Source of the DNA: Betaproteobacteria bacterium
GTDB taxonomy: Bacteria > Pseudomonadota > Gammaproteobacteria > Burkholderiales > CAIKXV01
Reading direction: 5' to 3'
DNA length: 42,586 nt
Assembly: GCA_947458835.1 (NCBI GenBank)
Contig: CANHBC010000005.1
Location: forward strand, 1-42,586
The notes beneath the pieces are model-generated. The model saw only the letters and a list, made by a program, of their open reading frames with translations. It was not told where the DNA came from and ran no database searches. Shown here in pieces: positions 21,772 to 29,063 of the stretch. A program made the translations under genes and the position numbers. Within the stretch, counting starts at the first letter, position 1; the number at the start of each line of letters is the position of its first letter.

Positions 21772-21795
21772 CACCGGTGGCCGGCCTCACCGGTG
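21772..21795. terminator. Possible two-way terminator hairpin between convergent genes
   Basis: CACCGGTG (21772-21779) and CACCGGTG (21788-21795) are complementary because the octamer is its own reverse complement; the loop is eight bases. The right arm overlaps the stop of the SMP-30 gene. It lies between two converging genes, but no T-run follows in either direction. Confidence 0.38.
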
Positions 21796-22728
21796 CGAGC
21801 GCAGCACCCGGCCTGCTACCGGCACCGGCGCGGTGAGGATGCATCCTGCCTCTGAGTCGACGATGTACAGCGTGCGCCGGTCCGCGCCACCGTGGGCGAC
21901 GTTGGTCACCACATCGCTGGCCGGCGAATCGATACGCAGCAACGGCTCGCCGCGACGGTCGAACAGCCAGACGGCGCCCATGTCCGGGTGCGCCACGGCG
22001 AGACCGTCGGACTCGTCGATCGCCATGCCGTCCGGACCTCGCCCGCCGGAGAGCTGCACGAAGAGGCCCATCCGCGCGACACCGCCGGCCGGGTTCTGCG
22101 CGGTCGGGGCGAGCAGCGGCAGGCGCCATATTGCGTTGGCACGGGTGACCGCGACATGCAGCGTATCCTGCCGGCCGTTCAGTACCAGCCCGTTGGGGCT
22201 GGGCAGCTGGCCGGCGAGCCGGTCGAGCGCGCCGTCGGTGCGCAGCCGGTACACCCGCCCGGTCGGGTCGTCCAACGCGGTCTGTCCCTGGTCGGTGAAG
22301 TACAGGTCGCCGTTGTCCGCGAAGGTCAGGTCATTGAGGCCCTTGAACCGCTCGGCGCGATAGCCGTCGAGTACCTGCTTCACCTGGCCGCTCAGCGGAT
22401 CGAGTTCGAGCAGTCCCTGCCGGTAGTCGGCGACCAGGATGCGTCCGTCGGCATCGATGGCCAGTCCGTTGGGCTCGCCGTCGTACTCGGCCACCAGCGA
22501 GAAGGTACCGCCGGCGTCGACTCGGAAGATGCGGCCGTAGGGGATGTCGGTCACGTACAGGTTGCCGGCGCGGTCGAACGCCGGACCCTCGAGGAAGCAG
22601 CCGTTCCTGGGCACGCTGCGTCCCGACGCCATGCGTTGTGCGGACAGCCGGCGCGTGCGGAAGGTCGCCGGCAGTTCGGCGAACACGCGGGCGGTGATTC
22701 GCGGCGGAGGGGCGAACAGTGTGCTCAT
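21787..22728 (-). CDS. SMP-30/gluconolactonase-family lactonase
   Basis: This 313-residue protein is a six-bladed beta-propeller of the SMP-30/gluconolactonase/LRE type. The usual metal ligands can be located: E47 in LEGPAF, the asparagine in SPNGLVL, the asparagine/aspartate of FKGLNDLTF, and aspartate in GPDGMAIDESDGL. Repeated NLYVTD, GRILVADY and DLYFTD strands mark the blades. No signal peptide is seen. Such enzymes open sugar lactones, which suits the sugar-acid genes further on. The ATG at 22728 begins the conserved text and lies 25 bases after the GntR gene, so regulator and lactonase are probably cotranscribed. Confidence 0.85.
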   Translation of the reverse strand: MSTLFAPPPRITARVFAELPATFRTRRLSAQRMASGRSVPRNGCFLEGPAFDRAGNLYVTDIPYGRIFRVDAGGTFSLVAEYDGEPNGLAIDADGRILVADYRQGLLELDPLSGQVKQVLDGYRAERFKGLNDLTFADNGDLYFTDQGQTALDDPTGRVYRLRTDGALDRLAGQLPSPNGLVLNGRQDTLHVAVTRANAIWRLPLLAPTAQNPAGGVARMGLFVQLSGGRGPDGMAIDESDGLAVAHPDMGAVWLFDRRGEPLLRIDSPASDVVTNVAHGGADRRTLYIVDSEAGCILTAPVPVAGRVLRSHR

Positions 22729-22753: not shown

Positions 22754-23737
22754 TCAGAAGTGGGGCACAGCGTCCAGTTCGCCGCGGCCACCGGGGCCGA
22801 TTGCCGGTGGGTCGCTCCCGAGCAGGTCGGCCTTCACCTGGCGGATGTCCTCGAGGTGCGAACGCAGCAGGCGTGCCGCCTGCTCGCGCCGCCCCGCCTC
22901 GATCAGGTCGAGCAGTGCCAGGTGCTCGCGCGCGGCGGCGACGAAGGCGCGCGTCTCGCGGAACGGACGGTACACGATCAGCCGGCGCAGGCGGTTCGCA
23001 CGCTGGCTCGCCTCGATGAAGAAGGGGTTGCCGCAGCAGCCGACGATCGTCGCGTGGAAGCGCGTGCCGATGTCGAACCATTCGTTGCTGCTCAGGCGCG
23101 GCGTGCGTGACTGCACCAGTTCCTCCTGCTCGGCGCGGACCCTGGCGAATGCTGCGGTATCGATCCGGTAGCCGGGCTCGAGCAGCGCCGCCGGTTCGAT
23201 CGCCAGGCGGAAACGGTAGCTCGCTGCGTGGGCCTCCGCGGAATCGAGCACCGGCAGGAAGCGCCAGCCGTAGCCCGGACGGCGCTCGATCCAGCGCTCC
23301 TGGGCCATGCGGGTGAGGTTCTGGCGCAGCACCGCTCCGGTGACCCTGTAGCGCTCGGCGAGCAGGGTCTCGGTCACGAACTCCGGCAGCCGGCCGGCCA
23401 GCCGATCGGCCGCGATCTGCAGGTAGGGCTGGGTCGCCTCCGGTTCGGCCAGCGCGCGCACCGCCTGCGCATGGGCATCGCGGTCGCCGGTGACCACGAA
23501 GCCGCGGTGCGGCTCGCGCGCGGCGACGCCACCCGCCTCGAGCAGGCGCAGCGCGCGCTCGATCGGCGAGCGCGACACATCATGGCGCAGCGCGAGTTCC
23601 GCGCCCTTGAGCCGTGCGCCGGGTGGCAGCGCTCCGGATCCGATTTCGACCAGGATGCGCCGGGCGATGCGTCGCACCAGCGGCGTGGCGGGACCGTGTT
23701 CCAGCCACCCACCTGCGGACGTCGGGGATGCGGCCAT
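22754..23737 (-). CDS. GntR-family regulator with two winged-helix domains and FCD domain
   Basis: This 327-residue regulator is longer than the usual 220-260 of the FadR/FCD group. It begins with a GntR winged helix (about residues 18-84, with LKGAELALRHDVSRSPIERAL). A second winged-helix-like region follows (about 103-162, with LLAERYRVTGAVLRQNLTRM and a W-helix wing GYGWRF). Residues about 172-305 form an FCD effector-binding domain with histidines and aspartates expected to hold a metal (SNEWFDIGTRFHATIV, EHLALLDLIEAG). FCD regulators usually respond to carboxylic acids. It lies between the lactonase and the Ldh-family gene in one direction, 26 bases after the latter, and is a candidate binder of the inverted repeat at 24924-24955. 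Confidence 0.87.
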   Translation of the reverse strand: MAASPTSAGGWLEHGPATPLVRRIARRILVEIGSGALPPGARLKGAELALRHDVSRSPIERALRLLEAGGVAAREPHRGFVVTGDRDAHAQAVRALAEPEATQPYLQIAADRLAGRLPEFVTETLLAERYRVTGAVLRQNLTRMAQERWIERRPGYGWRFLPVLDSAEAHAASYRFRLAIEPAALLEPGYRIDTAAFARVRAEQEELVQSRTPRLSSNEWFDIGTRFHATIVGCCGNPFFIEASQRANRLRRLIVYRPFRETRAFVAAAREHLALLDLIEAGRREQAARLLRSHLEDIRQVKADLLGSDPPAIGPGGRGELDAVPHF

Positions 23738-23763: not shown

Positions 23764-24861
23764 TCAGCCCGCAGCGAAGGGATCGCTGCGGCCGTCCGGG
23801 AGCGGCACTGCTGCACCTGCCGCCTCTTCGGCGAGCGCACGGATCACGTCTGCGGTAACCGGGATGCCGGTCACCGCCCGGTGCGCTGCGGTGCGTGCTT
23901 CCGGCTCGCCGGGGATGAGGATCTCGTCGCAGCCCTCCGCCCGCGGCATCGCCTTGGCGCGTTCGAACATCTCGTCCATCCGGTCGCGGAACTGTTGCAT
24001 CGGCATGAACAGGTCGGGCCGGAACGCGATGAACAGGTGTCCGACGTCCTGCGGTCCGGACAGGTCGAAGTACAGGCTCTTCACGCCGCCAGCGAAGGCC
24101 GAGCCGGTGAGCACGCCGGAGAAGACGTCCATCATGAACGCGATCGCCGAGCCCTTGACGCCGCCGAATGGCAGCAGCACGCCCTCGAACGCGGCCTGAG
24201 CATCGGTGGTCGGGCGTCCGTCGCTGTCGAGCGCGAGGCCGAGCGGGATCGGGTCACCCCGGCTGGCTGCGAGCCGGATCTTGCCGCGCGCGATCACGGT
24301 CATCGCGAGGTCGAGTACGTAGTCGCCATGGCGGCCACCGGGCGCGCCGACCGCCAGCGGCGCGGCGCCGTGGAAGTTGGTGCGCCCGCCCCAGGCCGGC
24401 ATCGCCGGCGAGGAATTGGTGAAGGCCATCGACACCATGCCGGCCTCGATCGCCTGCATCACATAGAGCGCGGCCATGCCGTAGTGGGTGCTGCGCCGGA
24501 TGCCGACCATGCCGATGCCGGTGGTGCGGGCGATCGCGACCGCTTCGTCCATCGCCCGGTGCCCGACCACGAAGCCGATGCCGTCGTCGCCGTCGATCGA
24601 TGCCACCGCGGCGGCCGGCCGCTCGATCTTCAGCACCGGCGTCGGGTTGATCGCCTTCGCGCGCAGTCGCTTGCAGTAGATCGGAATGCGCGCCACGCCG
24701 TGCGAGGCAAGGCCGCGCAGGTCGGCGGCGACCAGGTCGCGCGCAACCGTCGCGGCGTCCTCAACGGGCAGGCCATGTGCCGCGAATACTCCGGTGCCGA
24801 ACGTGACCAGTTCGTCCGTGCTGAAGTACCGTGTCCGCTCGCCGCGCTCGCTGGCTGTCAT
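23764..24861 (-). CDS. Ldh-family NAD(P)-dependent hydroxy-acid dehydrogenase
   Basis: This 365-residue protein belongs to the malate/L-lactate dehydrogenase family that is distinct from classic LDH. Seen are GVARIPIYCKRL near residue 60, the conserved histidine in STHYGMAALY, AFTNSSPAMPAWGG and LPFGGVKGSAIAFMMD. The family oxidises 2-hydroxy acids such as malate, lactate, sulfolactate, ureidoglycolate or 2,3-diketogulonate. The ATG at 24861 begins the conserved text. It is the first gene of a minus-strand unit, Ldh, GntR, SMP-30, and is divergent from the alpha/beta hydrolase at 24980. Its substrate is likely a hydroxy acid but cannot be named. Confidence 0.88.
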   Translation of the reverse strand: MTASERGERTRYFSTDELVTFGTGVFAAHGLPVEDAATVARDLVAADLRGLASHGVARIPIYCKRLRAKAINPTPVLKIERPAAAVASIDGDDGIGFVVGHRAMDEAVAIARTTGIGMVGIRRSTHYGMAALYVMQAIEAGMVSMAFTNSSPAMPAWGGRTNFHGAAPLAVGAPGGRHGDYVLDLAMTVIARGKIRLAASRGDPIPLGLALDSDGRPTTDAQAAFEGVLLPFGGVKGSAIAFMMDVFSGVLTGSAFAGGVKSLYFDLSGPQDVGHLFIAFRPDLFMPMQQFRDRMDEMFERAKAMPRAEGCDEILIPGEPEARTAAHRAVTGIPVTADVIRALAEEAAGAAVPLPDGRSDPFAAG

Positions 24862-24923
24862 CGTGGGCCTGCCTTCGGTGGATTGCATTGGCGCGCAGGA
24901 CGCACCGCCCTGCGTGCCTCCGC

Positions 24924-24955
24924 AGTTTGCATTTGCGAGACGGAAAATGCAAACT
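24924..24955. promoter_or_regulatory. Perfect 11-bp inverted repeat, candidate operator
   Basis: AGTTTGCATTT (24924-24934) and AAATGCAAACT (24945-24955) are exact reverse complements, separated by 10 bases. The block is AT-rich in a GC-rich genome and lies in the 118-base divergent gap, ending 24 bases before the hydrolase ATG at 24980 and about 63 bases from the Ldh ATG. Matching half-sites 21 bases apart (centre to centre) face the same side of the helix, as expected of a dimeric regulator. The adjacent GntR protein is the most likely binder. An RNA hairpin in the hydrolase leader is a second possibility. Confidence 0.65.
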
Positions 24956-24979
24956 TGGCGCCGACGAGGAGGAACGAAA

Positions 24980-25864
24980 ATGGCGATGTTCGAAGGTTTC
25001 CGCGAGATGATGGTGCCGACCAGCGATCCGCAGTGCCGGATCAAGCTGCGCGTCGGAGGCAAGGGGCCGGCGATCCTGCTGCTGCACGGCAACCCGCTCA
25101 CGCATGTCACCTGGTACAAGATCGCGCCGCGCCTGGCCGACCGCTACACGGTCGTGTGTGCCGACCTGCGTGGCTACGGCGACAGCGACAAGCCGCGCGG
25201 CCTGCCCGACCATTCGAACTATTCGTTCCGCCGCATGGGCCAGGACATGGTCGATGTCATGAAGGTACTGGGCTTCGACGAGTTCATGGTGGCTGGCCAC
25301 GATCGTGGGGCGCGCACCGCGCACCGGATGGCGCTCGACCATCCCGAGAAGGTGAAGAAGTTCGCCAGCATCGAGATCATTCCGACGCACTGGCAGCTCA
25401 ACAACATGAAGTGGACCTACGCGGCCCACTCCTATCACTGGTTCTTCTTCGCCCAGCCGTACGACTTCCCCGAGAAGCTGCTCGAGGGCAAGGAGGAGTA
25501 CTACATCCGTCGCAAGTTCGCCAAGCAGGGCGAAGGCAAGTTCAGCGACGAGACCATGGCCGAGTACGTGCGCTGCTGCACCCCCGAGCACATCCACGGC
25601 ATGTCCGAGGACTACCGGGCGACGCTGTCGGTCGACTTCCCGCTCGACACCGCCGACTGGGAGGCCGGAAAGCGGGTGACCTGCCCGGTGCTCGTGATGT
25701 GGGCGGAGAAGAGCCACACGCAGCGCGAGTTCAGCGCGGTCGACGCCTGGCCGCACTATGCGACCGACATCCGCGGCTTCCACAAGCTCCAGTGCGCGCA
25801 CTATCCGATGGAGGAAGCTCCGGACGAGACCTACGAGAAGCTGGCAGCCTTCTTCGACGAATAG
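24980..25864 (+). CDS. Fluoroacetate-dehalogenase-like alpha/beta hydrolase
   Basis: This 294-residue protein follows the haloacetate/fluoroacetate dehalogenase plan. The nucleophile is aspartate D108 in GHDRGAR, with R109 and R112 placed as the carboxylate-binding arginines. The halide-pocket His-Trp pair is present in SYHWFFFAQP, and H274 (CAHYPMEEAP) is the likely catalytic histidine. The acid residue, aspartate in known fluoroacetate dehalogenases, is glutamate here (E132 in SIEIIPT). There is a strong ribosome site (GAGGAGG) and no signal. The protein is divergent from the Ldh gene and followed by a Bug receptor, a setting for a small carboxylate substrate. Epoxide hydrolase activity is less likely because of the DRGAR pattern. 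Confidence 0.83.
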   Translation: MAMFEGFREMMVPTSDPQCRIKLRVGGKGPAILLLHGNPLTHVTWYKIAPRLADRYTVVCADLRGYGDSDKPRGLPDHSNYSFRRMGQDMVDVMKVLGFDEFMVAGHDRGARTAHRMALDHPEKVKKFASIEIIPTHWQLNNMKWTYAAHSYHWFFFAQPYDFPEKLLEGKEEYYIRRKFAKQGEGKFSDETMAEYVRCCTPEHIHGMSEDYRATLSVDFPLDTADWEAGKRVTCPVLVMWAEKSHTQREFSAVDAWPHYATDIRGFHKLQCAHYPMEEAPDETYEKLAAFFDE

Positions 25865-25946: not shown

Positions 25947-26951
25947 ATGACTTCGACCGTCCCGCGCTCCGACGCTTCCCCGGCTCCGTTCGCCGCAACC
26001 CTGGCGGTGCTCGCACTGACCGCGGCCACGGCCGCACCGACGTGGGCGCAGGCCTGGCCGGCCCGTCCGGTGCGCCTGATCGTGCCTTTCGCTCCGGGCG
26101 CGGCCTCCGACATCACCGGGCGCCTGGTCGCGCAGAAGCTCTCCGAGGGCTTCAACCAGACGTTCGTGGTCGACAACCGACCAGGTGCGGGCGGCAACAT
26201 CGGCCATGACCTCGCGGCCAAGGCCGCCCCCGATGGCTACACGACAGTGCTCGCGAACGAGTCGCTCGCGATCAATGCATCACTCAGCCGCAAGCTGCCG
26301 TTCGACACGCTGCGCGACCTTGCAGCGATCAGCCTGGTGACCATCAACCCTCGCGTGTTTGTCGCTTCGGCCGCGTCGCCGCTGGAGTCGATCCGGGACG
26401 TGATCGCCGCCTCGCGCGCGAAGCCCAACAGCATCCGCTTCGGATCGTCCGGGGTCGGCACCGGGCCGCACCTCGCGGGCGCCATGCTGGCCAGCCTGGC
26501 GAAGATCGAGATGATCCACGTGCCCTACAAGGGCGCAGCGCCGGCGCTGGCCGATGTGCTCGGCGGCCAGATCGAGATGATCGCGACCACCATCCTGTCG
26601 TCGCAGCCGATGATCCAGTCGGGCAAGCTGCGCGCGCTCGCGGTGACGTCTGCGAAACGCTCCGGGACGCTGCCCAACGTGCCGACGGTGGCCGAGGGCG
26701 GGGTGCCGGGCTTCGAAGCGACCTCCTGGCTGATGCTGCTCGGTCCGGCGAAGACGCCCCGCGCAGTGGTGGCTCGACTGCACGAGGAGACCGCCCGTTT
26801 CCTCGAGCAGCCCGACGTGCGCAAGCGCATCGCCGCCGACGGTGGCGAGCCGGTCGGGTCGCCGCCGGACCAGGCCACGGCCTACCTGAAGTCACAGGTC
26901 GAGCGCTGGGCGCAGGTGATCCGCGCGGCGAACATCCAGCCGGAGTCCTGA
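25947..26951 (+). CDS. Bug-family (TctC) periplasmic solute receptor
   Basis: This 334-residue receptor has a long, hydrophilic start and a signal sequence that probably ends near A34 (TWA before QAW). Ligand loops are close to consensus: PFAPGAASDITGRL, VDNRPGAGGNIG, AAPDGYT and VPYKGAAPALADV. Alignment with the other receptors shows SS in place of the usual hydrophobic/aromatic stretch in TTILSSQPMIQSG. It follows the dehalogenase-like gene by 82 bases and may bind the same substrate, but this is only a guess from position. There is a GAAGGA ribosome site. Membrane subunits are absent. Confidence 0.88.
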   Translation: MTSTVPRSDASPAPFAATLAVLALTAATAAPTWAQAWPARPVRLIVPFAPGAASDITGRLVAQKLSEGFNQTFVVDNRPGAGGNIGHDLAAKAAPDGYTTVLANESLAINASLSRKLPFDTLRDLAAISLVTINPRVFVASAASPLESIRDVIAASRAKPNSIRFGSSGVGTGPHLAGAMLASLAKIEMIHVPYKGAAPALADVLGGQIEMIATTILSSQPMIQSGKLRALAVTSAKRSGTLPNVPTVAEGGVPGFEATSWLMLLGPAKTPRAVVARLHEETARFLEQPDVRKRIAADGGEPVGSPPDQATAYLKSQVERWAQVIRAANIQPES

Positions 26952-27092: not shown

Positions 27093-28373
27093 GTGACGGC
27101 GCAACGCCTGGCGCGTCCGCTGCTCGGCTGCATCGCGGATGACTTCACCGGTGCGACCGACCTGGCGAGTACGCTGGTCGCGCAAGGCATGCGCACCGTC
27201 GTGCTGCCGGGCGAGCCGAGGCCCGGGCAGTCGGTGCCTGTGGCCGATGCGCTGGTGGTCGCGCTGAAGTCGCGGTCTGTGCCGGCCGGTGAAGCGGTCG
27301 CAGCGTCGCTGGCCGCGCTGCGCTGGCTGCAGGCCGCGGGCTGCGCCCAGTACTTCTTCAAGTACTGTTCGACTTTCGACTCGACCGACCAGGGCAACAT
27401 CGGTCCGGTGGCCGAGGCACTGCTCGATGCGCTCGGTGCGACGTTCACGCTGGCCTGCCCGGCGTTTCCGGCCAACGGCCGCAGCGTCTACCGCGGCTAC
27501 CTGTTCGTCGGCGACCAGCTGTTGTCCGAATCGGGCATGCGCGACCATCCGCTCACGCCGATGACCGATCCGTCGCTGGTGCGGGTGCTGTCGCGGCAGA
27601 TCCGCGGCGACGCTGGTCTGATCGGCTACGAGGCGGTGGATCGGGGTGCCGCCGCGGTGTGCACCGAGATGCAGGCCCTGCAGGCGCGCGGCGTGCGCAT
27701 CGCGATCGCCGACGCGCTCGACGAGCGTCACCTGCGCGTGCTCGGCGAAGCCTGCGCCGACCTTGCACTGGTCACCGGCGGCTCCGGGATGGCGATGGGC
27801 CTGCCCGCGAACTTCCGTGCGCGGGGCTGGATGCCGTCGCCCGACAGCGCACGGCTGCCGCCGGTCGAGGGTTTCCGGGCGGTGGTCGCCGGCAGCTGTT
27901 CGGTGATGACGCGTACGCAGGTCGCGGCGATGTCGCGCTGGGCGCCGTCGTGGTTCGTGGATCCGGCTTCGCTTGACGATCCCGACGACGCGGTGGCGCG
28001 GGCACTCGCCTGGGCGTTGCCGAAACTGTCCGCCGGTCCGGTGCTCCTGCATTCGACGGCGGAGCCGGAGCGGGTCCTTGAGGCGCAGCGCCTGCTCGGC
28101 GTCGATGCCGGGGCGCGCATCGAGCGGGTGCTTGCCGCCATCGCGTGCGGGCTGGTGGAGGCGGGCGTACGCCGCCTGGTCGTCGCCGGGGGTGAGACGT
28201 CCGGCGCGGTGGTCGGTGCCCTGGGCATTGCCGCCCTGCGTATCGGCCCGGTGATCGCGCCTGGCGTACCCTGGACGGCTGGGGAGGGCGACCGGCCGAT
28301 GTGGCTTGCGCTCAAGTCCGGTAACTTCGGTGACGCGGACTTCTTCCGCACCGCGCTGGAGGCTGCCGGCTGA
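27093..28373 (+). CDS. otnK: 3-oxo-tetronate 4-kinase (OtnK, DUF1537 family)
   Basis: This 426-residue protein is a DUF1537-type four-carbon acid sugar kinase. The N-terminal domain starts GCIADDFTGATDLAST (about 12-27), the strongest marker of the family; the second half carries the ATP-binding part with VVAGSCSVMTRTQV, VAGGETSGAVVGALG and LKSGNFGD. It would phosphorylate 3-oxo-tetronate made from threonate or erythronate. The GTG start at 27093 follows GAGAGCG, a moderate ribosome site; no better start is seen. otnC is 54 bases downstream. The family was characterised in this pathway in other Proteobacteria; here the function is inferred from sequence and pairing. Confidence 0.9.
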   Translation: MTAQRLARPLLGCIADDFTGATDLASTLVAQGMRTVVLPGEPRPGQSVPVADALVVALKSRSVPAGEAVAASLAALRWLQAAGCAQYFFKYCSTFDSTDQGNIGPVAEALLDALGATFTLACPAFPANGRSVYRGYLFVGDQLLSESGMRDHPLTPMTDPSLVRVLSRQIRGDAGLIGYEAVDRGAAAVCTEMQALQARGVRIAIADALDERHLRVLGEACADLALVTGGSGMAMGLPANFRARGWMPSPDSARLPPVEGFRAVVAGSCSVMTRTQVAAMSRWAPSWFVDPASLDDPDDAVARALAWALPKLSAGPVLLHSTAEPERVLEAQRLLGVDAGARIERVLAAIACGLVEAGVRRLVVAGGETSGAVVGALGIAALRIGPVIAPGVPWTAGEGDRPMWLALKSGNFGDADFFRTALEAAG

Positions 28374-28427
28374 CCCGGGCCCCGCGCCTGCCACGCCATG
28401 CCGCCACGAGGGAAGGAGCGAACGTCG

Positions 28428-29063
28428 ATGTCGAACGAAGACCGCCTGCGCGAGGAACTGGTGCTGCTCGGCCGTTCGCTGTACGAGCGCGGCCTGGCGC
28501 ACGGGTCCGCCGGCAACCTGAGCGTGAAGCTGCCCGATGGGTGGCTGATGTCGCCGACCCGGTCCTGCCTGGGCCGTCTCGACCCCGCCCGGCTGTCCCG
28601 GCTCGATGCGCAGGGGCGCCTGGTCGACGGCGATGCCCCCTCGAAGGAGACCTTCCTGCACCTCGCGATGTACGGCGAGCGCGCCGATTGCGGGGCCGTG
28701 GTCCACCTGCATTCGGTGCACGCGGTCGCGGTGTCCTGCCTCGCCGGGCTGGACGCGTCCGACGTGTTCCCGCCGATCACTGCCTATGCCGTGATGCAGG
28801 TCGGGCGCCTCGCCCTGGTGCCTTACTTCCCGCCCGGCGACCTCGCGCTGGCCGATGCAGTGCGCAAGGTCGCGTCGCGCCACAAGGCAGTGCTGCTTGC
28901 CAACCACGGGCCGGTGGTCTCCGGCAGTTCCCTCTCGGCGGCCGTCGACGCGGTGGAGGAACTCGAGCAGACCGCACGGCTGATGCTCCTGCTGGAGGGC
29001 CGGCGCACGTCGCTGCTTGACCCGGGACAGGTCGCGGAACTCGAGCGGCGCTTCCCCGCCTGA
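28428..29063 (+). CDS. otnC: 3-oxo-tetronate 4-phosphate decarboxylase (OtnC, class II aldolase fold)
   Basis: This 211-residue class II aldolase-family protein has the zinc site H93-x-H95 (VVHLHSVHA) with H160 (LANHGP) and the catalytic glutamate E74 in SKETFLH. Pairing with otnK in the same direction points to OtnC, which decarboxylates the phosphorylated oxo-acid to dihydroxyacetone phosphate. The start ATG at 28428 is preceded by AAGGAG. Other members of the family use fuculose or ribulose phosphate, so the call rests on the neighbour. The isomerase OtnI, if needed, is not in the window. Confidence 0.87.
   Translation: MSNEDRLREELVLLGRSLYERGLAHGSAGNLSVKLPDGWLMSPTRSCLGRLDPARLSRLDAQGRLVDGDAPSKETFLHLAMYGERADCGAVVHLHSVHAVAVSCLAGLDASDVFPPITAYAVMQVGRLALVPYFPPGDLALADAVRKVASRHKAVLLANHGPVVSGSSLSAAVDAVEELEQTARLMLLLEGRRTSLLDPGQVAELERRFPA

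Follow-up and report, generated by a model that had tools for sequence, protein, structure and literature searches.

The window, that is, the whole stretch of 42,586 nucleotides analysed here, contains a divergent gap of 118 bp between the start codon of a gene for an Ldh_2 family dehydrogenase (23764–24861, minus strand, with the start at 24861 picked by comparison with relatives) and that of a gene for a dehalogenase-like alpha/beta hydrolase (24980–25864, plus strand). The Ldh gene is the first of a leftward row, in which a gene for a GntR regulator (22754–23737, minus strand) and one for an SMP-30/gluconolactonase-like protein (21787–22728, minus strand, with a chosen internal ATG as the start at 22728) follow in the same direction with gaps of about 25 bp. 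The hydrolase gene heads a rightward group and its product contains the motif GHDRGAR, as in enzymes of the fluoroacetate dehalogenase type, whose nucleophile is an Asp; 82 bp behind it lies a gene for a TctC/Bug-type substrate-binding protein (25947–26951, plus strand) that probably belongs to the same unit. Between 25947 and 31135, to the right, several genes for TctC/Bug-type binding proteins are found together with a pair of kinase-type and class II aldolase genes, pointing to the uptake and breakdown of organic acids.

In the gap, AGTTTGCATTT (24924–24934) and AAATGCAAACT (24945–24955) are exact complements separated by the 10-base spacer GCGAGACGGA, and together they form a 32-bp element (24924–24955, with no strand assigned), a predicted operator, whose core, TTGCAT-N14-ATGCAA, occupies positions 24927–24952. 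A sequence-only reading had described here a perfect 11-bp inverted repeat with AT-rich arms in a GC-rich setting, and both points hold, the GC content being 27% in the arms and 70% in the window. The same reading had centred the repeat in the divergent gap, next to the GntR gene. The gap is indeed divergent, but the repeat is off-centre in it, 24 bp from the start codon of the hydrolase gene and 62 bp from that of Ldh, and the regulator gene is not adjacent, being located behind Ldh in the same leftward row. The gap also includes a terminator-like stem of 5 pairs (24910–24925), and no sigma-70 promoter was found in it. A single half-site-like sequence, TTGCATTGGCG (24883–24893), lies in the Ldh leader, beginning 44 bp ahead of the equivalent bases in the left arm, and could be an extra half-site.

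By itself the repeat is not significant, since the window contains two perfect inverted repeats with arms of at least 11 bp and a spacer of at most 20, whereas 20 order-1 Markov sequences have an average of 1.1; the only other one of this class, at 2462–2498, has GC-rich arms of 12 bp and a spacer of 13 bp. Its significance comes from its conservation in the genus. Eleven genomes were searched with the repeat pattern, allowing up to three mismatches, and with the reversed pattern as a control: exactly one copy, with no mismatches, was found in nine of them, and the control gave none in any of the 11. All nine copies precede the hydrolase gene, with Ldh on the opposite side in the eight cases in which the contig extends far enough. 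When the nine gaps are aligned, the arms are invariant in all 22 columns and the spacer in none of its 10, and the two flanks have only 3 and 4 invariant columns out of 60 each; mean pairwise identity is 1.00 in the arms, 0.33 in the spacer and 0.49 and 0.54 in the flanks. Such invariant letters in the arms, within a gap that changes rapidly, argue for sequence-specific recognition and not for RNA base pairing. Two copies deserve a separate mention: in G001 the repeat is lengthened to arms of 18 bp, TCGCACGAGTTTGCATTT...AAATGCAAACTCGTGCGA (L037, 1188–1233), and in G009 (L043) the entire 32 bp are one palindrome.

The distribution of the regulator gene is largely the same as that of the repeat. 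GntR matches were found in eight of the nine site-bearing genomes, namely the window's own (100%) and seven others with 72–87% identity, the match in G008 being only a fragment (residues 163–310). The ninth, G007, has the repeat and no GntR gene was found in it; the completeness of this genome is 84%, and only 68 bp separate the repeat from the end of its contig. Two genomes do not have the site: G002 (84% complete) is also without the hydrolase gene, and G005 (97% complete) retains the divergent hydrolase and Ldh genes, with 86% and 78% identity, respectively. In G005 no GntR ortholog was found in the genome and no such repeat in the gap, and the Ldh gene is followed by a frame that, judged by eye from its translation, is cytochrome P450-like. 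The half-sites are therefore kept in nine of the 10 genus genomes that have the dehalogenase-like gene, the exception being also without a GntR ortholog, and this joint absence of regulator and site is what an operator of that regulator predicts.

The scan of the genomes for the motif also bears on the extent of the regulon. No second full site with up to three mismatches was found in the own genome, and the core TTGCAT-N14-ATGCAA has one extra match among the 11 genomes, in G003 (L138, 1501–1526; G003:C4:563930–563955), where it precedes a gene for a TonB receptor-like protein in a 3-kb locus in which no GntR gene was seen, and is probably the site of another regulator or a chance match. A larger regulon was considered and discarded for these reasons. 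With one copy per genome, the regulon corresponds to this divergon, and the proposal that the dehalogenase-like, Ldh, lactonase and regulator genes form one regulon is supported by this single site and by its place, which imply that it would govern the Ldh-GntR-lactonase row on one side and the hydrolase-Bug group on the other. That its reach might include the kinase-type (SBD_N/NBD_C) and aldolase genes further to the right (27093–29063) is a guess.

The architecture of the regulator is unusual. Its N-terminal winged helix (residues 19–82) is recognised by the Pfam GntR profile with an E-value of 3.1e-16 on the whole protein (residues 21–82) and of 7.5e-12 on residues 20–83, and its C-terminal part is an FCD ligand and dimerisation domain (5.2e-17 for residues 174–296; helices of the model at 167–306, approximately). 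Between the two, residues 100–165 match the same GntR profile with 24.4 bits (E 2.4e-5), below the cut-off of 27 bits, and the AlphaFold2 model, which is of moderate quality (mean pLDDT 69, pTM 0.48, built on 6 sequences), places the series helix-helix-helix-strand-strand twice, at 19–82 and 104–160, before the FCD helices. Together, the model and the profile indicate that the protein is a regulator with two tandem winged helices before the FCD domain. GntR proteins of the FCD (FadR/VanR) subfamily typically have one winged helix per subunit, from which this protein departs by its predicted second winged helix at 104–160. The best fold matches are solved chains of the GntR type of 198–271 residues, presumably with one winged helix each, and their TM-scores on the query are 0.21–0.36. 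The operator departs from the subfamily as well: instead of a palindrome with GT and AC separated by 2–3 nt, 18 nt separate them in the window and in the N14 sites of the homologs.

Homologs outside the genus allowed the association between regulator and core to be followed in other gene contexts. In the order, a search of 399 genomes gave 12 loci with proteins 32–44% identical, and TTGYAT-N14-ATRCAA is found near the regulator gene in four of them (L047, L048, L050 and L051), in one case behind the gene; three sites of this set match at 12 of 12 positions with the N14 spacing. An N15 spacing is present in L045 and in both sites of L111. In the class outside the order, no homologs besides the own genome were found among 369 sampled genomes at E 1e-45, and since the phylum sample contains several homologs in the class, the class sampling is thin, with scoring limited to a few best candidates in each genome. 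The phylum set (20 loci) gave a weak outcome, with one N14 site near the gene at 11 of 12. Homologs are also encoded in 140 plasmid records, 137 of them matching over at least 80% of the protein, and, where annotated, they are often beside genes for the uptake and breakdown of organic acids.

The preference for N14 was evaluated by scanning the 300 bp before the protein match, with distances counted from the start of the match rather than from a mapped start codon and expectations obtained from shuffles. In 28 plasmid loci, which were taken from the 140 records after the N14 spacing had been noticed, at least 11 of 12 positions match at N14 in five loci, against 0.05 expected, and all 12 in three, against 0.00. 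The 16 other spacings together gave eight matches at 11 of 12, above the shuffle mean, and matches at 10 of 12 also exceed this mean at other spacings. In 34 loci extended to 8–20 kb, the N14 spacing has 10 sites at 11 of 12, seven with TTGTAT (T-type) and five with TTGCAT (C-type) arms, the mixed sites of L054 and L055 being counted under both, and each of the other spacings from 6 to 22 has 0–2 of the T-type and 0–1 of the C-type; sites of the TGGTAT type are absent at N14 and number up to 3 at other spacings in this set, in which one locus has Arg at residue 46. Around 22 weaker GntR matches in the genus, taken regardless of their number of winged helices, no sites were found in 65 kb.

The N14-bearing homologs occur in alpha-, beta- and gammaproteobacteria, and the placement of their sites varies, some preceding the regulator gene, some following it and some preceding an operon. 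In L089, for instance, where the regulator gene follows acnA, the gap that separates acnA from a divergent lactonase gene contains TTGCAT-N14-ATGCAA.

A further line of evidence comes from the bases of the half-site, in which TTGTAT, TTGCAT and TGGTAT differ at positions 2 and 4. Residues 45 and 46 of the first winged helix were equated with Glu34 and Arg35 of FadR solely by their offset from the recognition-helix Arg (R56, taken as FadR Arg45), with the FadR numbers of PMC4494728 (Table 1), which lists the two residues as positions 27 and 28 and reports a preference of Arg at 28 for G/C. A set of 60 loci, which leaves out L082–L087 and L116 as repeats of others, was then examined for sites at N14 with 11 of 12 matches. 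The 33 proteins with Glu at 45 have TTGTAT in 4/33 loci and TTGCAT in none, the 19 without it have TTGCAT in 5/19 and TTGTAT in none, and those with Arg at 46 (8/60) have TGGTAT only, in two of their eight loci; in 49 of the 60 loci, none of the three types was found at 11 of 12 in the 400 bp upstream. On these comparisons, one operator base appears to covary with a residue of winged helix 1. The rule that links residues and bases was framed after most of the supporting sites had been seen; those recognised afterwards that agree with it are L125 and L117 (Glu, T-type) and L099 and L089 (Ala, C-type).

Among the other proteins with Glu at 45, L054 and L055 have an N14 site whose arms are of different types, T in one and C in the other; the N13 site of L134 is likewise mixed, in L123 the left arm of an N14 site at 10 of 12 is of the C-type, and the T-type match of L132 (Glu) is 6 kb away and may be due to chance. 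For L108 and L120, for which TTGCAT is predicted, no site was found in larger surrounding stretches. In a tree of 64 proteins, with the near copies L004, L005 and L006 left out, the non-Glu proteins with C-type sites fall into three groups: L050/L051, L099, and the clade that unites the window's genus with L088, L105 and L112. Since L050/L051 are firmly separate and the fork between the other two is unsettled, at least two changes are supported. Residue 60 (E or R) was also considered as the cause of the difference between TTGCAT and TTGTAT and was dropped, as L112 has R60 and L088 has G60 and both have TTGCAT. In L090, L091, L092 and L101, with Arg at 46, sites of the GGT-N18-ACC type are found upstream of the GntR gene, and on visual inspection there are two in L090 and two in L092, which suggests double operators.

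From these data, all of them computational, we consider it very probable that the repeat is an operator of the local tandem-winged-helix GntR protein and controls the divergent breakdown genes. The dimeric operator proposed from the first reading of the DNA is supported by the conservation in the genus, by the joint absence of site and regulator from G005 and by the same core and spacing near homologs. The GntR protein encoded behind Ldh would have the repeat as its only operator and would bind it as a dimer, gripping both arms with its first winged helices, while its second ones and the FCD domains would keep the arms about two helical turns apart, with 20 bp between the centres of the hexamers. 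The lack of conservation in the centre suggests a second winged helix that either sets the distance between the arms or makes contact with the backbone alone; its role as a ruler is an inference. The bound protein would most likely block transcription of the Ldh-GntR-lactonase row as well as of the hydrolase-Bug group, because the site stands between the start codons of Ldh and the hydrolase, 24 bp before the latter; since no promoter was recognised in the gap, we infer the sign of this regulation, repression rather than activation. A substrate or product of the pathway would then bind to the FCD domain and cause the release of the protein, repression relieved by an acid ligand being the usual mode of FCD regulators.

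The alternative that survives best is a variant of this reading, so that the probabilities of the two overlap. It is possible, if rather doubtful, that the GntR protein binds as two dimers or as a tetramer, each arm being a separate site and the second winged helix not being a ruler. Tetramers are known in the family, as in the case of Atu1419 (PMC7797058), and the tetrameric BusR also uses a fixed spacing (PMC8517857), as far as the available parts of these two sources describe them; however, a single arm is not a palindrome of the FadR type, and the recurrence of N14 around an unconserved centre suits one complex with two-fold symmetry. It is improbable that the repeat is instead the operator of another, unlinked regulator controlling the same divergon, as might be thought from G007, in which the repeat stands without a detected GntR gene, and from the second core of G003, which has no GntR gene seen nearby and thus indicates that the core can arise in another setting. 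Such a regulator is difficult to reconcile with a single full copy in each of nine genomes, with the lack of the repeat in the one genome that keeps the divergent pair without a GntR ortholog, with the same core and spacing near some GntR homologs that are found in other classes and beside other genes, and with the covariation of the core with a residue of winged helix 1. Finally, a function of the repeat as RNA, either a hairpin in the 5' UTR or a terminator, is very unlikely even though the arms are able to pair and lie just before the ribosome-binding site of the hydrolase gene, as no compensatory changes are seen and the arms are constant in nine genomes with flanks only about half identical, no T run follows the repeat, the one Rfam match in 24500–25300 is below threshold and outside the repeat, so that a riboswitch or RNA hairpin was set aside for want of an Rfam match at the repeat itself, and the site of distant homologs may precede the regulator gene, follow it or precede an operon.

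The operator reading of the repeat can be extended, as a moderately probable generalisation, to a branch of FCD regulators in Proteobacteria with two winged helices per subunit and operators of the form TKGYAT-N14-ATRCMA. In this branch the second winged helix would be a ruler that moves the FadR half-sites 15–16 bp apart, the T or C at base 4 of the half-site would follow the presence or loss of the Glu34 equivalent, and the T or G at base 2 an Arg at the place of Arg35. If base 4 and base 2 follow these two residues, the operator of an uncharacterised member becomes predictable from the two residues. GntR proteins belong to the most common regulators of bacteria, and the usual picture of a FadR-subfamily operator is a short GT-N2-3-AC palindrome (PMC4494728). 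A branch with such stretched sites, if true, would escape searches for these short palindromes; the fixed N14 and the two-residue code, as proposed, would make its targets predictable and testable and would give a job to the second winged helix. What is new here is the proposal of a stretched operator for FCD regulators with tandem heads: no regulator with tandem winged helices and an FCD domain, nor a stretched FCD operator, was described in the literature searched, which consisted of titles and the openings of abstracts and included few subscription papers.

Among known systems, the closest is the FadR (FCD) subfamily, whose boxes, TKGT/ACMA, have GT and AC mostly 3 nt apart and in some groups 2 nt apart, according to the part of the study by Suvorova and others that was available (PMC4494728). 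The regulator and its homologs, as a group, share with it a GntR winged helix joined to an FCD domain, half-sites of the TTGT/ACAA or TGGT/ACCA type, and the association of the extra G with an Arg at the place of FadR position 35, which is residue 46 in the numbering used here (PMC4494728). Unlike in that subfamily, 18 nt instead of 2–3 separate GT/GC from AC/GC (PMC4494728), two winged helices per subunit are present, and TTGC takes the place of TTGT in the proteins without Glu at the place of FadR Glu34. A second comparison is with Atu1419, a VanR-type FCD protein that, like the regulator proposed here, controls breakdown genes, in its case for hydroxycinnamic acids, and whose half-site ATGTAT resembles TTGTAT (PMC7797058). 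In the portion of that source at hand, Atu1419 differs in its contiguous 10-bp palindrome ATGTATACAT, in having one N-terminal DNA-binding domain and in forming a tetramer, which may loop the DNA between sites separated by 190 bp (PMC7797058). A third is BusR, a member of the GntR family that, as described in the accessible part of its report, recognises a bipartite site with a separation of 22 bp, set by a coiled-coil ruler (PMC8517857). In BusR, as predicted here, the GntR winged helices are held at a fixed wide distance on the DNA; the means differ, because BusR has an RCK_C domain and a coiled coil and is a tetramer (PMC8517857), whereas in the regulator of the window Pfam gives GntR, FCD and a sub-threshold MarR_2 and no RCK_C domain, and the spacer element would be the second winged helix.
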